Shown here piece after piece: positions 14,544 through 32,074 of a stretch of 47,623 nucleotides of DNA (position 1 is the stretch's first letter; each line of letters begins with the position of its first letter). The DNA is taken from positions 1-47,623 of the forward strand of contig MVRN01000056.1 in NCBI GenBank assembly GCA_002067965.1, given 5' to 3'. This DNA is from Pelotomaculum sp. PtaU1.Bin035. Its GTDB lineage: Bacteria > Bacillota > Desulfotomaculia > Desulfotomaculales > Pelotomaculaceae. The position numbers and the translations under genes were made by a program. Below the pieces are notes generated by a model. It was not told where the DNA came from. It did not search any database and was given only the letters and a program-made list of their open reading frames with translations.

Positions 14544-14942
14544 TTGTCGGATTATTTACTAGTCGTTGATGACAATGCAGGTGTGAGATGTCTGTTATTC
14601 GAGATATTAAGTCACGAAGGATACAATGTGGAAATGGCAGCCAATGGTCTTGAAGCGCTTCGGAAAGTTAGTATCAGAGTGCCTTCCCTTATCATTCTGG
14701 ATGCTAAAATGCCGGGGATGAGTGGTCTGGAAACGCTGGAAGAACTAAAGAAACTCGCTCCAAATGTACCGGTTATAATAATAACGGCATATACGGAACT
14801 TGATGCAGTAATTGAAGCCCAGAAATGTGGCATGGTAATGTACCATTTAAGAAAACCTTTTGATATTGATGATATACGGAATTTAGTAAGGAGTATCATG
14901 GCCAAGGAAACAAACGATGATCAAAAACCAAAAGCCAATTGA
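14544..14942 (+). CDS. Spo0F-like single-domain response regulator
   Basis: A receiver domain with no output domain, 132 residues. The acidic pocket is D9/D10 (VDDNAG), phospho-acceptor D53 (LIILDAKMPGMSG), T81 (IIITAYTELD) and K104 (RKPFDIDDIR). The stretches AYTELD and KPFDIDDIR are strikingly close to Bacillus Spo0F (from memory), so it may be the phosphate relay between sensor kinases and Spo0A. TTG 14544 lies behind GGAGG (14531-14535). No kinase is adjacent; the sporulation-type kinase at 30425 is a possible partner. A generic CheY-like role cannot be excluded. Confidence 0.8.
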   Translation: MSDYLLVVDDNAGVRCLLFEILSHEGYNVEMAANGLEALRKVSIRVPSLIILDAKMPGMSGLETLEELKKLAPNVPVIIITAYTELDAVIEAQKCGMVMYHLRKPFDIDDIRNLVRSIMAKETNDDQKPKAN

Positions 14943-15006: not shown

Positions 15007-15846
15007 TCAACTTGAAAATGTAACTGGTTCACAATTCTGTTTTGATAAAGTTGAGGCAAGGCTGGCCAAATTGATTAAGTCATCGACAGTTGCAGAGAGA
15101 TGGGGTTCTGTACGCGCACCCTCTCTACAACCCCCCGCCACTCCGGCGGCGACGGTTACCGGCACACCATTTTTCTTTGTGGTATCAGCTATTTTTTTTA
15201 TTATTTCATTAGCCCATAATCCGGCATCATCTTTTTTTTCTGTTGTCACTACAATAAACTCGTCTCCGGCATAGCGCCCCGGAAAATAGAGCCCGTCGGG
15301 AGTATTTTCAGCAAAAATATGCCCAACTATCTTTAAGCAGCGATCTCCATACACATGTCCATAAGTTTTATTAATAATTCCAAAGCCATTAAGATCAAAA
15401 AAAATGACCGTCAGTTGATTCTTATTCGTCAGGATGCTCTCAGCTAGAGATCTTATATATGACCCTGTCCTAAGCCCGGTTAAAGGATCTGTATGTCTGC
15501 CAATTTCAACAAGAATGTCAGTCTTAGTAACAACTCCGACAAGCTTGCACTTATCTAAAACCGGCAGCCTTTCCAGTTTTTTTTCTTCGAGAATGCTTTT
15601 TGCTTCCCACAAAGGAGTATTTATATAAACATATACAACATTTTTGCACATGGCATCGGCAACGATACGATTGGGGTGGGCGCGACGCACGTCCCGAGAT
15701 GTTATAATGCCACATAGTTTTCCGTTATCCAAAACAGGCAGGCCGCCGATTTCGTATTTTTCCATTATTGTGGCGACTTTACTGACGCTGTCTAGGATTT
15801 CAACTGTGATAGCGGGGGAGGACATAACTTCGGATACATTAAGCAT
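15007..15846 (-). CDS. CBS-pair/GGDEF diguanylate cyclase
   Basis: Two CBS domains (about residues 5-58 and 62-115) fused to a GGDEF domain (about 118-270), 279 residues, no membrane segment. The cyclase has FFDLNGFGIINKTYGHVYGD and a signature AGDEF (193-197) in place of GGDEF; first-position Ala is found in active cyclases. No RxxD inhibitory site is seen five residues upstream. The CBS pair probably senses adenine nucleotides, linking c-di-GMP synthesis to energy state (inference). ATG 15846 follows GAGGTTGA and overlaps the previous stop in TAATG, so translation is coupled. Third gene of the riboswitch-led operon. Confidence 0.88.
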   Translation of the reverse strand: MLNVSEVMSSPAITVEILDSVSKVATIMEKYEIGGLPVLDNGKLCGIITSRDVRRAHPNRIVADAMCKNVVYVYINTPLWEAKSILEEKKLERLPVLDKCKLVGVVTKTDILVEIGRHTDPLTGLRTGSYIRSLAESILTNKNQLTVIFFDLNGFGIINKTYGHVYGDRCLKIVGHIFAENTPDGLYFPGRYAGDEFIVVTTEKKDDAGLWANEIIKKIADTTKKNGVPVTVAAGVAGGCREGARTEPHLSATVDDLINLASLASTLSKQNCEPVTFSS

Positions 15847-16217
15847 TATAGATCAACCTCAACATTAATATTTAATACTATATTTATTTGAGCTTTCAAA
15901 ACTGCAGTTTCGGAAGCAACTTTATGTCCTTCCTCTAAAATAATACTCAATAGCTTTTCTTGGGTAACCAATCGTGACAGTGATTTTCTAATAACCACAG
16001 ATTCAAAAGGTCCCTCATTCACATTTAAAATTTCGTATTGTTCCGGACTCAACACGTCTATCATCCGTTGAACTGCTTTGGTGCCAATGGGCGCTCTCCT
16101 GCCGATGAGCAGTACGTCCTGTATTGGAGGTATTTCAAACTCAGACAGAATAATTGAAATCTGTGCCTTTCTTCCGGTGTCATTTAAATTTCCTGATTTC
16201 AAACTTAACAACACCAT
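15846..16217 (-). CDS. Conserved-looking protein of unknown function in c-di-GMP operon
   Basis: A 123-residue soluble protein that I do not recognise. It has no membrane segment or Cys motif; the middle reads VLLIGRRAPIGTKAVQRMID, followed by alternating strand/helix and a hydrophobic beta-rich end. It is translated between an HD-GYP-type phosphodiesterase and a CBS-GGDEF cyclase: its start lies 38 bases inside the former and its stop shares bases with the start of the latter. The tight coupling suggests it works with c-di-GMP turnover, perhaps as a receptor or partner; this is inference only. Confidence 0.7.
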   Translation of the reverse strand: MVLLSLKSGNLNDTGRKAQISIILSEFEIPPIQDVLLIGRRAPIGTKAVQRMIDVLSPEQYEILNVNEGPFESVVIRKSLSRLVTQEKLLSIILEEGHKVASETAVLKAQINIVLNINVEVDL

Positions 16218-16779
16218 CCCAATCTATTATCAATATTTTGTCTGAATCTTGAATAACCTTTTCCACCAAGCAGGGATCGAACTGGGTGCCACTAAGTCTC
16301 TCTATTTCATTGATGCTTTGCTCACGGCTTTTAATTTGGGAATAGGGCCTGCGGGAATTCATAGCGTCAAAAGCGTCCGCCAGGGCCAGTATTTTTGCTC
16401 CCATGGGGATGTTTCTTCCATGGATACCGTTATATCCATTACCATCCCATCTTTCATGATGGAGATTTACCAGTTGGAGGAAAGGCTTGGCCCAGGGGTA
16501 AGATGAAAGTATATTAATACCATATTCCGTATGTTTTTTTATAATTGCAAATTCTTTGCTTGTTAGCCTTCCCGGTTTATTTAATATTATTGGATCAATT
16601 TTAATTTTACCGATATCGTGAAGCAAACCCGCATGTTTAATTAACGATACTTGTGTCTTTGATAGTTCCAGGAAATTTGCGATTCTAGCGGAAAGCATTC
16701 CTACTTTGACTGAATGTTGATAAGTTTCATAACTGTAATCGGCGATTGATTGGACTAAGTTATTCAACTCTTCAAACAT
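16180..16779 (-). CDS. HD-GYP-type c-di-GMP phosphodiesterase
   Basis: Stand-alone HD-GYP domain of 199 residues. [10 protein letters not shown] carries the HD pair (H54, D55) and HHERWDGNGYN (107-117) is the GYP motif, with N instead of P; the NIPMGAKILALADAFDAM helix follows. The metal ligands appear intact, so hydrolysis of c-di-GMP to pGpG/GMP is likely. The ATG at 16779 has an SD-like AAGGGG (minus strand, 16789-16794) nine bases upstream. It is the first gene behind a c-di-GMP-I riboswitch, so its own substrate should control it. Confidence 0.88.
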   Translation of the reverse strand: MFEELNNLVQSIADYSYETYQHSVKVGMLSARIANFLELSKTQVSLIKHAGLLHDIGKIKIDPIILNKPGRLTSKEFAIIKKHTEYGINILSSYPWAKPFLQLVNLHHERWDGNGYNGIHGRNIPMGAKILALADAFDAMNSRRPYSQIKSREQSINEIERLSGTQFDPCLVEKVIQDSDKILIIDWDGVVKFEIRKFK

Positions 16780-26565: not shown

Positions 26566-27063
26566 TTAATAATCAGCCTGGCCTTTGCTAAAAGGCAACG
26601 CAACCTTCCACGCGTTTTTATCGGGTTTTTTTAGCTTTGATATTATCACGGCAAAAAGGATCATAAGTGTATCTTGCGGCAAGCCGAGTAATTTCCATAA
26701 TAAATAATCGTTTGATATAACAGCCTGCTGATCGAGTTTTGTAACGGCAAAAAATATATAATTTATAGCCAATTCAATGGTTGCCAGGGTACAAATGCTT
26801 GCAATGGCGACAATAAGGCTTTTTGATAAAGAACTCCGGGTGGTTTTTATAATAAACAAGGCCACAAGTAACGTAGCTACGACTGTATGAAGCCCATAAG
26901 CCATCGGTAAAGACCTTATAATAAAAATAATTACAGTCATTGCCGTACCGGCGCATGTTATAATTCCCCAGCGCAGTGGAACGCGCACCAGGGCCAAGCT
27001 AAAAGCGATGATACCCATTAATTCGGGGATGCCTTGCATAAAAAATAATAGAGTCCTAACCAT
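26566..27063 (-). CDS. Small polytopic membrane protein, paralogue 1 (AgrC-sensor-like?)
   Basis: 165 residues with about five membrane segments and no soluble domain. It is a clear paralogue of the gene at 29146: by hand count about 100 of roughly 153 aligned residues are identical, including FFMQGIPE, VPLRW, RSLP-AYGLHTV, QQAVISN and LLGLPQ. From memory, this pattern resembles the N-terminal membrane sensor of clostridial AgrC/GHKL kinases, but no kinase part exists here. ATG 27063 follows GTGAGG. Its promoter region carries a Spo0A box and shares sequence with that of its paralogue. No agrB or agrD lies downstream, so this copy is an orphan. Confidence 0.8.
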   Translation of the reverse strand: MVRTLLFFMQGIPELMGIIAFSLALVRVPLRWGIITCAGTAMTVIIFIIRSLPMAYGLHTVVATLLVALFIIKTTRSSLSKSLIVAIASICTLATIELAINYIFFAVTKLDQQAVISNDYLLWKLLGLPQDTLMILFAVIISKLKKPDKNAWKVALPFSKGQADY

Positions 27064-27182
27064 ATTAATACCTCACTTCCTTATTCCTCGCTTTAATAGT
27101 TTTTAAATTACCGCTTATTTCTACAGATGTTGCTGTAACCCTTCCAAAAAATTCACAAGTTTTCTACAATAATCCAGCAATT

Positions 27183-27189
27183 TTCGACA
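27183..27189 (-). promoter_or_regulatory. Spo0A box upstream of membrane paralogue 1
   Basis: TGTCGAA on the minus strand, 120 bases before the start codon, within TTGTCGAAAA. Near-matches TGTAGAA occur at 27162-27168 and 27119-27125 in the same direction. Confidence 0.5.
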
Positions 27190-27297
27190 AATAACAATAA
27201 TTCGGCAAGCCCAGTTAGTTAAATTTTACATCAGGCAGGATTTTTAACAAAAATGATAGAAAGAAACACTAATCATACATTTTTTCGGGAGACATAT

Positions 27298-28854
27298 ATG
27301 ATCACCATTGTAAAAAGCACCGCCCTCCACGGCCTGGACGGCCAGATAGTGGAGGTGGAAGTCGATGTTTCCAGGGGGTTGCCGAGTTTCGACCTGGTCG
27401 GGCTTCCCGACACCTCCGTGCGGGAGGCGAAGGACCGGGTGCGCGCAGCCATAAAAAATTCCGGCCTTGAATTTCCAGTCAAACGGATTACAGTAAACCT
27501 GGCGCCGGCCGACCTCAAGAAAGAAGGACCTGTTTACGACCTGCCCATAGCCGTGGGGATACTGGCCGCCACCGGACAGCTGGATCCGGCGCGTTGCGGC
27601 GGGTACGTATACCTGGGCGAATTATCGTTAAACGGCTCTTTGAGGGGTGTTTCAGGTGTGCTTCCCAACGTCCTGGCAGCCAGGGAAGCACGCTTAAGTG
27701 AAGTGATCGTGCCGGTGGAAAATGCCGGAGAAGCGGCGCTGGTGGACGGGATGGACGTTTATCCCGCCAATTCCCTTGCCGAGTTGGCCGGATTCCTGCG
27801 CGGTGAAAACGATATTGTTCCTTTCAAGCAGGACGCGGAAGGGCTGGTGGATTCATTTTGCGACGATGAGCTTGACTTCGCGGACGTGAGAGGGCAGCAC
27901 GCGGCCAGGCGGGCGCTGGAAGTGGCGGCGGCGGGCGGCCACAATGTGATCATGATTGGGAGCCCCGGCTCCGGCAAGACCATGCTGGCGAGGCGGGTCC
28001 CGGGAATTCTGCCGGACCTTACCTTTCCCGAAGCCATCGAAGCGACGAAAATCCACAGCCTGGCCGGCCTGCTGCCCCAGGGCCAGCCGCTGGTTGCCAG
28101 GCGTCCTTTCCGGTGTCCTCACCATACCGCTTCTGCGGCCAGCATTATTGGCGGCGGCAGAGTACCAAAGCCCGGAGAGGTATCCCTGGCTCACCACGGG
28201 GTGCTTTTCCTCGACGAGATGCCTGAGTTCCACAAAGACGCCCTGGAAGCCCTGCGCCAGCCTCTGGAGGACGGTATTGTAACGATATCCAGGATAAACG
28301 CCAGCATTACCTACCCGGCCGGCCTGATGCTGGTAGCCGCCTGCAACCCCTGCCCCTGCGGCTACCACGGTGATCCGGCGCGGGAATGCAAATGCACCCC
28401 TTACCAGGTGGAGCGCTATATTTCCCGCCTGTCCGGACCTCTTTTAGACCGCGTCGACATCCACATCGAGGTGCCCAGGCTTCCCTATGAGGAAATCGCG
28501 GCCGGGGAAAAGCCGGAAGGTTCCGCAGCGATCAAAAAGAGAGTGGAAGCTGCCCGGGCGCGCCAGCGGGCGAGGTTTGCCACGGAAGAGCGCGGACACG
28601 TGCGGCGCGCAGCGCCGGCCTGCAACGCCCGGATGGGCCCGAAGGAGGCGCAGCGTTACTGCCGGATGACCAAAGCAGCCCGCGACCTCCTTCAAGAAGC
28701 TTTCATGCGCTTGTCTTTAAGCGCCCGCAGTTACGACCGGATTTTAAAAGTCTCCCGCACCGTCGCCGACCTGGAAGGTTGTGAGCTGATCGAAGAAATC
28801 CATGTGGCCGAAGCTGTCCAGTACCGCTCTTTGGACAGACGTCAATTATTTTAA
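27298..28854 (+). CDS. comM: ComM/YifB-family Mg-chelatase-like AAA+ helicase
   Basis: 518-residue member of the YifB family; the Gammaproteobacterial ComM is a branch-migration helicase in natural transformation. N-terminal Lon-like domain (VEVDVSRGLPSFDLVGLPD) to about 180, then the AAA+ module with GSPGSGKTMLARR (Walker A), GRVPKPGEVSLAHHGVLFLDEMPEF (Walker B), ACNPCPCGYHGD and a C-terminal domain with RLSLSARSYDRILKVSRTVADL. ATG 27298, 8 nt after GGGAG. Its higher GC compared with the flanking membrane genes stands out. It lies between the two inverted paralogues. Confidence 0.93.
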   Translation: MITIVKSTALHGLDGQIVEVEVDVSRGLPSFDLVGLPDTSVREAKDRVRAAIKNSGLEFPVKRITVNLAPADLKKEGPVYDLPIAVGILAATGQLDPARCGGYVYLGELSLNGSLRGVSGVLPNVLAAREARLSEVIVPVENAGEAALVDGMDVYPANSLAELAGFLRGENDIVPFKQDAEGLVDSFCDDELDFADVRGQHAARRALEVAAAGGHNVIMIGSPGSGKTMLARRVPGILPDLTFPEAIEATKIHSLAGLLPQGQPLVARRPFRCPHHTASAASIIGGGRVPKPGEVSLAHHGVLFLDEMPEFHKDALEALRQPLEDGIVTISRINASITYPAGLMLVAACNPCPCGYHGDPARECKCTPYQVERYISRLSGPLLDRVDIHIEVPRLPYEEIAAGEKPEGSAAIKKRVEAARARQRARFATEERGHVRRAAPACNARMGPKEAQRYCRMTKAARDLLQEAFMRLSLSARSYDRILKVSRTVADLEGCELIEEIHVAEAVQYRSLDRRQLF

Positions 28855-29031
28855 AACACCCCTCAGTCGCGTTACTTTTTTTCGTTAAACCTGCTTATAT
28901 AAAATCTCACTAAAAGGGTACCGATGGAGATCGTGTTAAGTAGCTGTCCGGCCAAAATCCCTGCTAAGTAACTTCAGATATATTCTCAAGTTATTGGGGG
29001 AATTCCATGAAAATCCAGATTGGTTATAATA

Positions 29032-29038
29032 TGTCGAA
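29032..29038 (+). promoter_or_regulatory. Spo0A box upstream of the agr-like operon
   Basis: Perfect TGTCGAA two bases after a TATAAT (29025-29030), 108 bases before the first start codon. A near-match TGTAGAA lies at 29097-29103. Placement just downstream of a -10-like element would suit repression, if that element is used. Confidence 0.5.
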
Positions 29039-29145
29039 ATATGTTGGAATATTTTTGAAATAATTTTATGCATCTTGGCAGGATTATGGCAACATTTGTA
29101 GAAATATGCCCGCAGTTAAAGAAATGTTTGATTTGGAGGCAATGT

Positions 29146-29607
29146 ATGGAAAAGACTCTGTTGTTTTTTATGCAAGGTATCCCAGAATCAATAGGTTTAA
29201 TTTCTTTTTGTTTGGCTCTGGCCGGCGTTCCGTTACGCTGGAAAATCATTATAGCAGTAGGTATGGTATTGACTACAATTGTTTTGATATTAAGGTCTTT
29301 GCCTCTTGCTTATGGTCTTCATACAGTTGCGATTACACTACTTATGGCCTTTGTTATCACAAAAATCACCCGGATTCCGGCAGCAAAAAGTCTTATTGCA
29401 GCCTTTGCGAGTATTTGTGTCTTGGCGATAATGGAATTAGCAATTAATAATTTGTTTTTTTCTATCACAAAACTCGAACAACAGGCTGTTATATCAAATA
29501 ACTTATTATGGGAATTGCTCGGTTTACCTCAGGCAATATTAATGATTATTTTTGCAGTAATTATTCCCAAGTTTAAAAAACCCATTGAAGGCGCGTGGAA
29601 GATTTGA
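29146..29607 (+). CDS. Small polytopic membrane protein, paralogue 2, first gene of agr-like operon
   Basis: 153 residues, about five membrane segments, close paralogue of the minus-strand gene at 26566-27063. I place the start at ATG 29146, 6 nt after GGAGG (29135-29139), giving MEKTLLFFMQGIPE; upstream in-frame ATG 29068 adds an unrelated hydrophilic stretch. It overlaps agrB by 13 bases, so the two are translationally coupled. Position in front of agrB-agrD-kinase suggests a role in sensing, export or processing of the peptide. A detached AgrC-type sensor domain is my best guess; an accessory transporter is the alternative. Confidence 0.82.
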   Translation: MEKTLLFFMQGIPESIGLISFCLALAGVPLRWKIIIAVGMVLTTIVLILRSLPLAYGLHTVAITLLMAFVITKITRIPAAKSLIAAFASICVLAIMELAINNLFFSITKLEQQAVISNNLLWELLGLPQAILMIIFAVIIPKFKKPIEGAWKI

Positions 29608-30218
29608 GTTACCTTGCTTTTAGTAAACGCTGGGCGAATTATTTAGCGGTCCAGACGGGGCTTTCATCAGAGAAGGTACTTATTTTGACTTACGTTATTG
29701 AGGTGTTGGCGCTTAATTTATTAAGTGTAATTATGACGCTCTTGCTTGGCTTGTTGATCGGCGTTTTGCCGGGAACGGCTGCCTGCGTCATTACGGGGTT
29801 CATCTTCAGGCATACTGCAGGCGGGGCGCATTCCAATTCCCCATGGCGTTGCGGGGTAATCACCATAACCATATATCCTCTGATTGCCCTATTGGCGGCG
29901 TCTCTTTCGGGACTAAGTCAATTGTATTTTGATATCCTGCTGGCCGTATCTATGCTATTGGGGCTGGTGGCAGTTATCCTCCTGGCGCCGGTGGACTCAC
30001 CGTCTGCGCCGATAATATCGCCCGCGAGGCGGAAAAAAATGAAATTAATATCAGTGATGATAGTGCTGATGTTAGCAATGTTGTTATTGATTTTACAGCG
30101 AAGCCAATGGGTTTATGCCCGGCAAGTACAACTCTGTGTTGCATTCAGTATAATATGGGTTAGCTTGATGCTTAGCAAACAAGGATACCAGTTAATTTCA
30201 TTAATAGATAATATTTAA
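29595..30218 (+). CDS. agrB: AgrB-type autoinducer peptide-processing membrane protease
   Basis: Membrane cysteine protease that trims the AgrD precursor and forms its thiolactone. 207 residues with about six membrane segments. The catalytic signature RHTAGGAHSNSPWRC has His79 and Cys86, seven apart as in Staphylococcus AgrB (H77, C84). GTG 29595 overlaps the preceding gene by 13 bases (SD GAAGG lies close; TTG 29604 is an alternative). agrD begins 23 bases later. No classic AgrC/AgrA pair is present; the kinase downstream is another type. Confidence 0.92.
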   Translation: MEDLSYLAFSKRWANYLAVQTGLSSEKVLILTYVIEVLALNLLSVIMTLLLGLLIGVLPGTAACVITGFIFRHTAGGAHSNSPWRCGVITITIYPLIALLAASLSGLSQLYFDILLAVSMLLGLVAVILLAPVDSPSAPIISPARRKKMKLISVMIVLMLAMLLLILQRSQWVYARQVQLCVAFSIIWVSLMLSKQGYQLISLIDNI

Positions 30219-30241
30219 AATGAAGGAGGTGAACTTGAATT

Positions 30242-30364
30242 ATGAAATACAAATTATTCGGGTTTGCGGTGACTCTGCTTTTATTACTTGCCAACATAAC
30301 GTCCGCTTCTGCTTGCTTTGCTGGACATTACCAACCTGAGGTCCCCGAATCGCTAAGGAGATAA
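30242..30364 (+). CDS. agrD: AgrD-type cyclic lactone autoinducer precursor (40 aa)
   Basis: Tiny gene: 40 codons behind a strong GGAGGTG site, 23 bases after agrB. The amphipathic hydrophobic N-terminal half (FGFAVTLLLLLANITSA) is followed by ACFAGHYQPEVPESLRR. QPEVPESL lines up with the conserved EVPKEL of staphylococcal AgrD, which sets the ring just before it: Cys25 to His29 (CFAGH), a five-residue thiolactone. Tyr30 onward would be the AgrB-cleaved tail. The exact N-terminal trimming site cannot be read from the sequence. This is a predicted secreted quorum signal. Confidence 0.88.
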   Translation: MKYKLFGFAVTLLLLLANITSASACFAGHYQPEVPESLRR

Positions 30365-30375
30365 CTGGCTAGATT

Positions 30376-30396
30376 AAGGAGGCGGTCCGCCTCCTT
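30376..30396 (+). other. Perfect intercistronic hairpin between agrD and the kinase gene
   Basis: AAGGAGGC (30376-30383) pairs with GCCTCCTT (30389-30396) around GGTCC; the whole 21 bases are palindromic around T30386. No U-run follows, so it is not a standard terminator. The 5' arm contains a full SD sequence, locked in the stem. It may lower kinase expression relative to agrD or protect the upstream message. Confidence 0.6.
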
Positions 30397-30424
30397 ATGA
30401 ATGTCCGTCAAGGAGTGGACGAAA

Positions 30425-32074
30425 TTGGAAATGGCCGATAAAATGAAAGAAAGGCAAAAGGAATTAATTGATCACTTATTAACCATGCACCTGCTTTGTA
30501 TTATCGTTACTCTGATTGGGATAATACTATATGGAAATTACATTTACAGCAATCCTCCGATTAATTTGCGTTTTTGCTTTATTATAAACTTGATAGGTTT
30601 TTTAGTCGCCTTGTTGTACCTCATCAGGAAGCGTTTGCTGCAAGGTGAGTTAAAATTATTATCGTTGTTGAATATAATCTATGTCATTTTTCCATTGCCT
30701 GTGGCGACAATAACTTTATTTTTCGCCAGGAATAATATTCTTTATGTAAAGTCAATTCTTATACTTCCCGTCTTATTCGCCGCTTCCGCCATGGGCAAGA
30801 AGGCGGGTATGGCTATGGCGACAATATGCGCTTTTTATTTGGTTGCTATTGAAATGGCTATCGAAAAAATATCAATATTGCAGGCATTTGAAGCCAATTT
30901 AATTATTACCAGCATGATGTATATAGCCGGTTGGTTTGTCGGCGTCTTGATAGATAATAACAAACAATACCAGGAGCAATTAAAGGATAATATATTATCT
31001 CTAAACCGGGAAATCGCATACAGGAAACAGGTGGAGCAGGAGAATCAAAAGCTGTCTTCCGTAGTAAAACAATCTCCAAGCATCATTATGATTGCTGACA
31101 TCAACGGCAACATTGAATATGTTAATCCAAAGTTTGTTCAAATAACCGGTTACCCGTCCGAAGCAGTCGTTGGGAAAAAAATATGTGAGTCCAGCGATCA
31201 ATCTCCTGAAGAATATAAACAATTATGGGAAGTAGTTGCTTCAGGCGGAGAGTGGCAGGGTGAATTTCTTAACAAGAAAAAAAATGGCGATTATTATTGG
31301 GAATCTGCAACCATTTCGCCTTTTAGAAACCAAGACGGTGCCATCACTCATTATCTTAAGGTTGCGGAAGATATCACCGAGCGTAAAAGGGTAGAAAAAG
31401 AAATGAAACGCCTGGACCGGCTGCACTTGGTTGGAGAAATGGCCGCCGGTATCGGCCACGAAGTCAGGAACCCGATGACTACCGTGCGGGGCCTTCTACA
31501 ACTGCTTGAAAAAAAAGAAGAGCTTTTTCAACACAAGCAATACTATAATCTCATGATCGAGGAACTGGACAGAGCCAATTCAATAATTACAGAATTCCTC
31601 TCTCTGGCAAAGAACAAAGCGGCGGATTTAAAGGTGCAGAACCTTAACCCGGTATTGGAGGCCTTGTCGCCGTTAATCATGGCCAGCGCCACGAACTCCG
31701 ATATGTTTATTCAATTGGAACTGGAGGACATTCCTGATATACCCCTGGACGAAAAGGAAATGCGCCAGCTTATTTTAAATCTTGTCCGTAACGGGATGGA
31801 AGCAATGTCACCAGGCGGGATCCTGGCTATTAGGACTTTCCTGGACGGTGAAGATGTGGTCATGGCCGTGCGCGATCAGGGCGAAGGGATTGGCCCCGAT
31901 GTGCTTGAGAAGTTGGGCACTCCTTTCTTCACTACCAAAGATAATGGGACGGGCTTGGGGCTGTCGGTGTGTTACAGTATCGCTGCCAGGCACGACGCTA
32001 CAATAAAAGTAAAAACCAGTTCCGAGGGAACTGTCTTTTCAGTTGTATTCAAGCCGGGCGGTATAGGGACGTAA
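30425..32074 (+). CDS. Membrane PAS/HisKA sporulation-type histidine kinase of the agr-like locus
   Basis: About 549 residues: five or six membrane segments (residues 15-190), a PAS domain with PAC tail (about 210-335; IADINGNIEYVNPKFVQITGY), a HisKA dimerisation domain with the phospho-His in GEMAAGIGHEVRNPMTTVRG (H345), and HATPase with N box LNLVRNGMEAM, G1 DQGEGIG and TTKDNGTGLGLS. HEVRNPMTTVRG is the Kin/NtrB type, unlike HPK10 AgrC. I favour TTG 30425, 9 nt after AAGGAG; ATG 30401 lacks a site. No cognate regulator is adjacent; Spo0F-like 14544 is a candidate partner. Confidence 0.9.
   Translation: MEMADKMKERQKELIDHLLTMHLLCIIVTLIGIILYGNYIYSNPPINLRFCFIINLIGFLVALLYLIRKRLLQGELKLLSLLNIIYVIFPLPVATITLFFARNNILYVKSILILPVLFAASAMGKKAGMAMATICAFYLVAIEMAIEKISILQAFEANLIITSMMYIAGWFVGVLIDNNKQYQEQLKDNILSLNREIAYRKQVEQENQKLSSVVKQSPSIIMIADINGNIEYVNPKFVQITGYPSEAVVGKKICESSDQSPEEYKQLWEVVASGGEWQGEFLNKKKNGDYYWESATISPFRNQDGAITHYLKVAEDITERKRVEKEMKRLDRLHLVGEMAAGIGHEVRNPMTTVRGLLQLLEKKEELFQHKQYYNLMIEELDRANSIITEFLSLAKNKAADLKVQNLNPVLEALSPLIMASATNSDMFIQLELEDIPDIPLDEKEMRQLILNLVRNGMEAMSPGGILAIRTFLDGEDVVMAVRDQGEGIGPDVLEKLGTPFFTTKDNGTGLGLSVCYSIAARHDATIKVKTSSEGTVFSVVFKPGGIGT

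Follow-up and report, generated by a model that had tools for sequence, protein, structure and literature searches.

An Agr-type peptide cassette with a putatively split receptor and two exchanged outputs in Pelotomaculum and related Clostridia

Sporulation in Clostridia responds to Agr peptides, but by which path they act is an open question wherever an AgrC/AgrA partner has yet to be recognised. The question of what such a peptide talks to is raised by a locus of Pelotomaculum sp. PtaU1.Bin035 (assembly GCA_002067965.1), found in contig MVRN01000056.1, whose 47,623 nucleotides, analysed as a whole, are called here the window. Four open reading frames (ORFs), lying in a single direction, encode a small membrane protein (MP), an AgrB protease, an AgrD precursor and a membrane-bound PAS-HisKA kinase. 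With moderate confidence, we read this locus as a peptide quorum system of the Agr type whose receptor is split and whose output has been exchanged; in it, the kinase would feed the Spo0 phosphorelay. The cassette thereby suggests a route from a cell-density peptide to the sporulation decision, running from the peptide through a split receptor and a Spo0F-type kinase to Spo0A. Its features are the following.

29146..29607, forward strand: MP, 153 aa, five transmembrane segments, proposed stand-alone receptor subunit for the autoinducing peptide
29595..30218, forward strand: AgrB peptide-processing protease, PF04647 (E=1.8e-36), overlapping MP by 13 bp
29829-29831 and 29850-29852, forward strand: codons of AgrB His79 and Cys86, both invariant residues
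30242..30364, forward strand: AgrD peptide precursor, 40 aa, TIGR04223, 23 bp after AgrB
30314-30328, forward strand: predicted five-residue thiolactone ring CFAGH, followed by YQPEVPESLRR
30401..32074, forward strand: orphan membrane PAS-HisKA-HATPase_c kinase (Pfam), 36 bp after agrD
30428..31039, forward strand: six-helix membrane module at the kinase N-terminus, delimited by alignment and common to the GGDEF-HD-GYP effectors of relatives
31457-31459, forward strand: codon of the kinase phospho-acceptor His353, with specificity residues TTGLQL

A first interpretation, made from the letters alone (the sequence-only reading), had listed a five-segment membrane protein, AgrB, a 40-residue AgrD and a PAS-HisKA kinase, overlapping or 23-60 bases apart. 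ORFs and family assignments bear this out, the widest gap of 60 bp being obtained if the kinase starts at an alternative TTG at 30425, which has an AAGGAG of its own. Among the neighbouring ORFs, no LytTR regulator or GHKL kinase adjoins the cassette, and no response regulator gene adjoins the kinase, which is thus an orphan. Two other, more classical agr loci, on contigs C127 and C120 of the same genome, both contain GHKL-type kinases and LytTR-type regulators, so that the window cassette represents a distinct third system.

Orphan kinases of the same type are numerous in some genomes, and one of them might merely happen to adjoin agrBD. The distribution of the cassette makes such a chance neighbourhood scarcely credible. 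MP was found in 44 of the 60 related genomes searched, and the order MP-agrB-agrD-effector recurs across dozens of genomes with differing flanking genes, well beyond chance. In an AgrB-anchored survey of named genomes (80 loci, 81 AgrBs), MP lies directly upstream of 75 AgrBs, an effector carrying the membrane module directly downstream of 72 of the 77 not cut by a contig end, and an AgrD could be read in 68 loci; since the AgrB query came mostly from cassettes of the same type, these proportions describe this AgrB clade and not Agr systems at large. Carriers include Pelotomaculum, Desulfoscipio, Desulfotruncus, Sporotomaculum, Desulfofundulus, Syntrophaceticus and several Clostridium species. 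Chance adjacency was rejected on this evidence; the sequence-only reading had taken the genes for one system and staked this on the kinase staying in place in relatives, as it does.

Both AgrB residues pointed out by that reading, His79 and Cys86, show no variation across 18 sequences, and the PF04647 match is that expected of an agr-system protease. AgrD scores 40.2 bits against TIGR04223 (cut-off 19) and shows the ring cysteine and PxxP tail of the family. Comparison of 76 AgrDs shows that the cysteine is kept in 74 of them, while the four residues that follow are hypervariable, giving 72 distinct rings, between conserved flanks (ASA-C before the ring, YQPEVP-x-SL after it): this pattern is as would be expected for species-specific thiolactones. 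From AgrD, AgrB would release a thiolactone of five residues, CFAGH, with a short tail attached, to be exported; the cut is predicted after ring position five, as expected for the AgrD family. A third AgrD of the window genome (contig C120, L086 4678-4797) has SIGNF at the ring, with Ser in place of Cys, and would give a lactone; the AgrD of L203 is similar, that of L205 has Cys.

What, then, would receive the peptide? The structural model of MP consists of five long membrane helices (pLDDT, predicted local distance difference test, 95.5). A profile built from 61 stand-alone MPs matches, over most of its length, the first ~150 residues of AgrC-like SPOB_a/GHKL kinases, with E values from 8e-20 to 4e-29, and most of the kinases so matched adjoin an AgrB and a regulator, of the LytTR type where read. 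By this profile, MP and the sensor region of AgrC-like kinases are homologues, and the receptor therefore looks split, not replaced. The sequence-only reading had stated that neither AgrC nor AgrA is present: this is correct for AgrA and for the kinase half of AgrC, whereas for the sensor half it had to be abandoned on account of the profile match. MP, as a free-standing AgrC-type sensor region, would sense the peptide at the membrane, presumably by binding it.

An intermediate state is visible in the C127 and C120 loci of the window genome, where one gene encodes an MP-like part and another a two-helix GHKL kinase, as in L210 and L211. In a sample of the phylum, AgrB is found at 24 of 29 inspected MP loci, the other five being MP-effector, MP-GHKL or fused MP-GHKL arrangements. 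MP, AgrD and kinase occur together without a local agrB in four loci (L037, L038, L051, L053), and in three others, where gene order is altered, MP still adjoins the kinase (L073, L096, L173).

No Pfam or NCBIfam family covers MP, and neither profile nor fold searches found a relative among solved structures; having no family, MP has probably left such systems annotated as receptor-less. The top match of MP among viral models is a 165-aa protein of phage ctOSJ35 (template modelling score 0.62, E 0.2), suggestive only; an AgrB model of the same phage is likewise among the matches. A tblastn search of MP and AgrB against the phage collection gave no match, and plasmids yielded one weak AgrB match.

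The association of MP with AgrB can also be read differently, with MP as a partner of AgrB in the processing or export of the peptide, and the kinase sensing the peptide, or something else, alone. The two genes overlap in most loci, and in pairwise distances MP correlates better with AgrB (partial r 0.66) than with the effector module (0.37), a pattern which would also fit a role of MP together with AgrB and which counts against the split receptor. MP is, however, retained where AgrB is not at hand: in pairs with an effector (L074, L075, L233) and in fused MP-GHKL kinases accompanied by LytTR regulators (L240, L241), where no AgrB lies within the stretch examined. Furthermore, in P. terephthalicicum and in sp. 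PtaB.Bin013 the comM-rimO site, which in the window holds the cassette, contains agrB alone. A kinase sharing 62-63% identity with that of the window is found elsewhere, as are agrD and two MP genes, and in P. terephthalicicum the MP genes adjoin agrD and the kinase there: AgrB is here uncoupled from the sensor-kinase pair. A role of MP confined to peptide processing or export is thus improbable.

The kinase starts with the six-helix module, followed by PAS, HisKA and HATPase_c domains, all above the Pfam cut-offs; it is not an HPK10/GHKL kinase of the AgrC type. In the surveyed loci the module is followed by a HisKA/HATPase effector, often PAS-HisKA, in 30 cases and by GGDEF-HD-GYP in 40. With GGDEF-HD-GYP present in as many relatives or more, the sporulation-type kinase is one of two interchangeable outputs, a fact missed by the sequence-only reading. 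In D. acetoxidans (L090) a kinase and a GGDEF-HD-GYP protein stand in tandem behind one MP-agrB-agrD set. A tree of the module requires at least five output changes by parsimony, two of them forced by well-supported branches, and a quick AgrB tree eight. MP would act on the six-helix module of the adjoining effector, a pairing shown by the conserved gene association; in relatives with GGDEF-HD-GYP, the same MP-AgrB-AgrD input is proposed to control cyclic di-GMP (c-di-GMP). If that version works alike, there would be a direct link from a thiolactone quorum signal to enzymes of c-di-GMP, and taken together the two versions would constitute a natural experiment in output swapping behind one receptor.

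Two related observations may be added. In Clostridium yunnanense (L169) an MP-agrB-agrD-GGDEF cassette has as its neighbour an MP-HisKA kinase pair encoded on the opposite strand. A second kinase of the window genome is truncated near the start of contig C110 (L102), where its end remains; across the final 87 residues it shares 66% identity with the window kinase.

The sharing of the module by both output types also lends itself to another explanation, in which the module is itself the peptide receptor, MP being an AgrB accessory or a co-receptor. The kinase would in that case be a single-protein receptor of the autoinducing peptide, comparable to the six-helix sensors of the CqsS type. The modelled module (pLDDT 84) best matches, among PDB structures, the membrane domain of the diguanylate cyclase ImcA (8wcn, Z 12.9 over 192 residues), followed by those of adenylyl cyclases 9 and 8 (Z 9-11), figures at the limit of what helical bundles give by chance, so that a Z below 13 may reflect a merely common arrangement; by sequence it is weakly DUF4118/PilS-like. 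The closer correlation of MP with AgrB is in keeping with this explanation, and two further points weigh against a split receptor: the kinase's own module, or its PAS domain, could be the main sensor, and the homology link of MP is to AgrC-like kinases of Clostridia, the comparison not extending to Staphylococcus AgrC. On the other hand, it is MP, not the module, that is homologous to an AgrC-like sensor region, and MP is kept in effector loci without agrB. We consider reception by the module unlikely, though deserving of serious attention, and retain MP as the proposed sensor.

Where would the signal of the kinase go? The Spo0 phosphorelay has been verified in Desulfotomaculum acetoxidans, and the specificity residues of its kinases listed (Davidson et al. 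2018, PMC6136694): phosphotransfer to Spo0F was shown for B. subtilis kinases and for Dtox_1918, which has residues TTGFQL and phosphorylates Spo0F in vitro (Table 1 of PMC6136694), and six Spo0F-directed kinases were predicted, including Dtox_3081 and Dtox_3426. We mapped the specificity positions to H+7, +8, +11, +12, +14 and +15 by motif matching; eight D. acetoxidans kinases were read in this way, of which six reproduce, in map order, the six published strings, and two (L251, L252) are absent from that table. The residues of the window kinase, TTGLQL, are one position off the TxGFQx type, TTGFQL itself being found in 45 of 68 related membrane-module kinases. Like the D. acetoxidans kinases, the window kinase is an orphan with an N-terminal PAS domain, as required by the signature of PMC6136694; unlike it, the assayed Dtox_1918 is devoid of this membrane module, as judged by profile. 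The two agr-linked kinases of D. acetoxidans DSM 771 (G047; L090 and L059) read TTGFQF, unique in the list, and TTGFQL: residue strings and map order suggest that they are Dtox_3081 and Dtox_3426. Two of the predicted kinases thus appear to be agr-linked, and the main text of PMC6136694 makes no mention of AgrB or AgrD.

The window also contains a candidate for the next component.

14544..14942, forward strand: stand-alone receiver, Spo0F-like, proposed to accept phosphate from the kinase

Its best PDB sequence match is Spo0F (1e-30, versus 5e-20 for the NtrC receiver), and it is the best Spo0F match of the genome (47%). Contig C54 (L186 1465-1896) encodes another Spo0F-like receiver that stands alone; it matches less well, with 42% to B. 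subtilis Spo0F. Spo0B is represented by a SPOB_a protein on contig C73, between rpmA (L27) and obgE, the same site as in D. acetoxidans, with a PDB Spo0B match at 2.4e-5. Proteins with a full Spo0A_C domain are encoded on contigs C114, C75 and C11 (L242-L244); three in one genome is an oddity, one being usual. Phosphate would pass from the kinase to the Spo0F-like receiver, then to Spo0B and Spo0A, a path for which residues, genes and a precedent are at hand.

The kinase might instead be the true output of the system and have a target other than the Spo0 phosphorelay. It is an orphan, and its best NCBIfam models, all far below cut-off, include AtoS and ZraS along with KinD. In addition, at a position held by Phe or Tyr in nearly all relatives, it carries Leu. 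The receiver at 14544 differs from Spo0F, conservatively, at 3 of 7 predicted specificity positions, as read from the alignment, and is found away from the canonical fba/pyrG site; no Spo0F-like receiver match of the genome lies at that site, the fba and CTP synthase genes being on contig C4. For this reason we call it Spo0F-like. All these points detract from the Spo0 assignment; yet the specificity residues, but for one position in the window kinase, agree with those of verified or predicted Spo0F kinases (PMC6136694), and enrichment of Spo0A boxes, described below, points the same way, which leaves another target rather unlikely.

Signals compatible with Spo0A control, and a stem-loop, are found at the following positions.

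29032..29038, forward strand: Spo0A box (0A box) TGTCGAA, with the similar repeats TGTTGGAA and TTTTTGAA after it, ~10-12 bp apart
29078..29106, forward strand: sigma-H-like promoter GCAGGATTA-N11-GTAGAAATA, 46 bp downstream of the 0A box, a consensus match only
30375..30397, forward strand: stem-loop in the gap between agrD and kinase, folding z -2.35 in the window

The 0A box lies ~108 bp upstream of the MP start. The sequence-only reading had spoken of Spo0A boxes at the locus; one perfect box was found, not several. As related loci are not fully independent, the p-values for enrichment are optimistic: among HisKA-type loci, 15 of 40 have a box in front of MP, compared with 35 of 579 upstream regions of control genes (Fisher p=4.5e-8), shuffles of the HisKA-type regions giving ~1.1 and at most 5; among GGDEF-type loci, 6 of 41 have one (p=0.045). 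In most box-bearing loci the box stands ~137-163 bp from the conserved MP Glu14 codon, with similar repeats after it. Enrichment is moderate for a loose sigma-H pattern, detected in 9 of 36 HisKA loci (p=6e-5) and 8 of 41 GGDEF loci (p=9e-4) versus 26 of 586 controls, and weak for a strict one (3 of 36 HisKA loci, p=0.03); the spacing from box to sigma-H pattern is 45-46 bp in the window, L048 and L049. Phosphorylated Spo0A, probably with sigma-H, may thus feed back on the operon via the 0A box. The hypothesis of the sequence-only reading, a peptide signal feeding a Spo0A phosphorelay, gains from the kinase adjacency, the specificity residues, the presence of Spo0B and Spo0A and the box enrichment, and loses from the position of the receiver: as far as genomic data go, the Spo0 link is well supported, not proven.

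Folding at the agrD-effector junction is a general property of these loci: z is -2 or lower in 83% of 66 such junctions, compared to 16% of 94 control junctions (p=3e-18). The stem-loop may determine how much pheromone is made relative to effector. Its structure is conserved in both output types, with varying sequence.

Comparison with known systems helps to place the cassette. As in the staphylococcal-type agrBDCA, it includes a His/Cys protease AgrB, an AgrD with Cys plus four ring residues, a PxxP tail and a hypervariable ring, and a homologue of the sensor region found in AgrC-like kinases; it departs from agrBDCA in having the sensor half as a gene of its own, a PAS-HisKA or, in relatives, a GGDEF-HD-GYP effector in place of HPK10/GHKL, and no LytTR AgrA in the locus. 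Agr systems 1 and 2 of Clostridium autoethanogenum (PMC8748961) similarly have agrD and a receptor gene with no agrA, and one of them lacks a local agrB, a shared AgrB being proposed; they differ in being described with AgrC-type histidine kinases and, in the passages considered, with neither a split receptor nor a HisKA/GGDEF effector. The agr cassettes of Paenibacillus phages (PMC3901668) likewise combine AgrB and AgrD with membrane proteins, one or two in number, which lack HATPase_c and are suspected AgrC homologues; they are mentioned in passing for three phages, with no effector gene identified. No pairing of AgrB/AgrD with GGDEF/HD-GYP or PAS-HisKA effectors was found in the open-access literature, an absence which is not proof, as the search covered few subscription papers. 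Whether these cassettes make up an undescribed, widespread class of Clostridia Agr systems, defined by a free-standing AgrC-type sensor, a cyclase-like module and a Spo0 or c-di-GMP output exchanged several times, we judge to be an evenly balanced matter.

The surroundings of the window cassette show some further peculiarities, beginning with a second MP gene.

26566..27063, reverse strand: MP paralogue, 65% identity, inverted, across comM from MP

The two MP paralogues (window 26566-29607) are inverted on either side of comM, and comM at this site is itself inverted relative to rimO in P. terephthalicicum (L105) and sp. PtaB.Bin013 (L106), as though this stretch had turned round. The Spo0F-like gene has, as its neighbours on the other strand (window 15007-16779), genes for a CBS-GGDEF-like and an HD-GYP-like protein: c-di-GMP genes are thus found beside the Spo0F-like gene, too.

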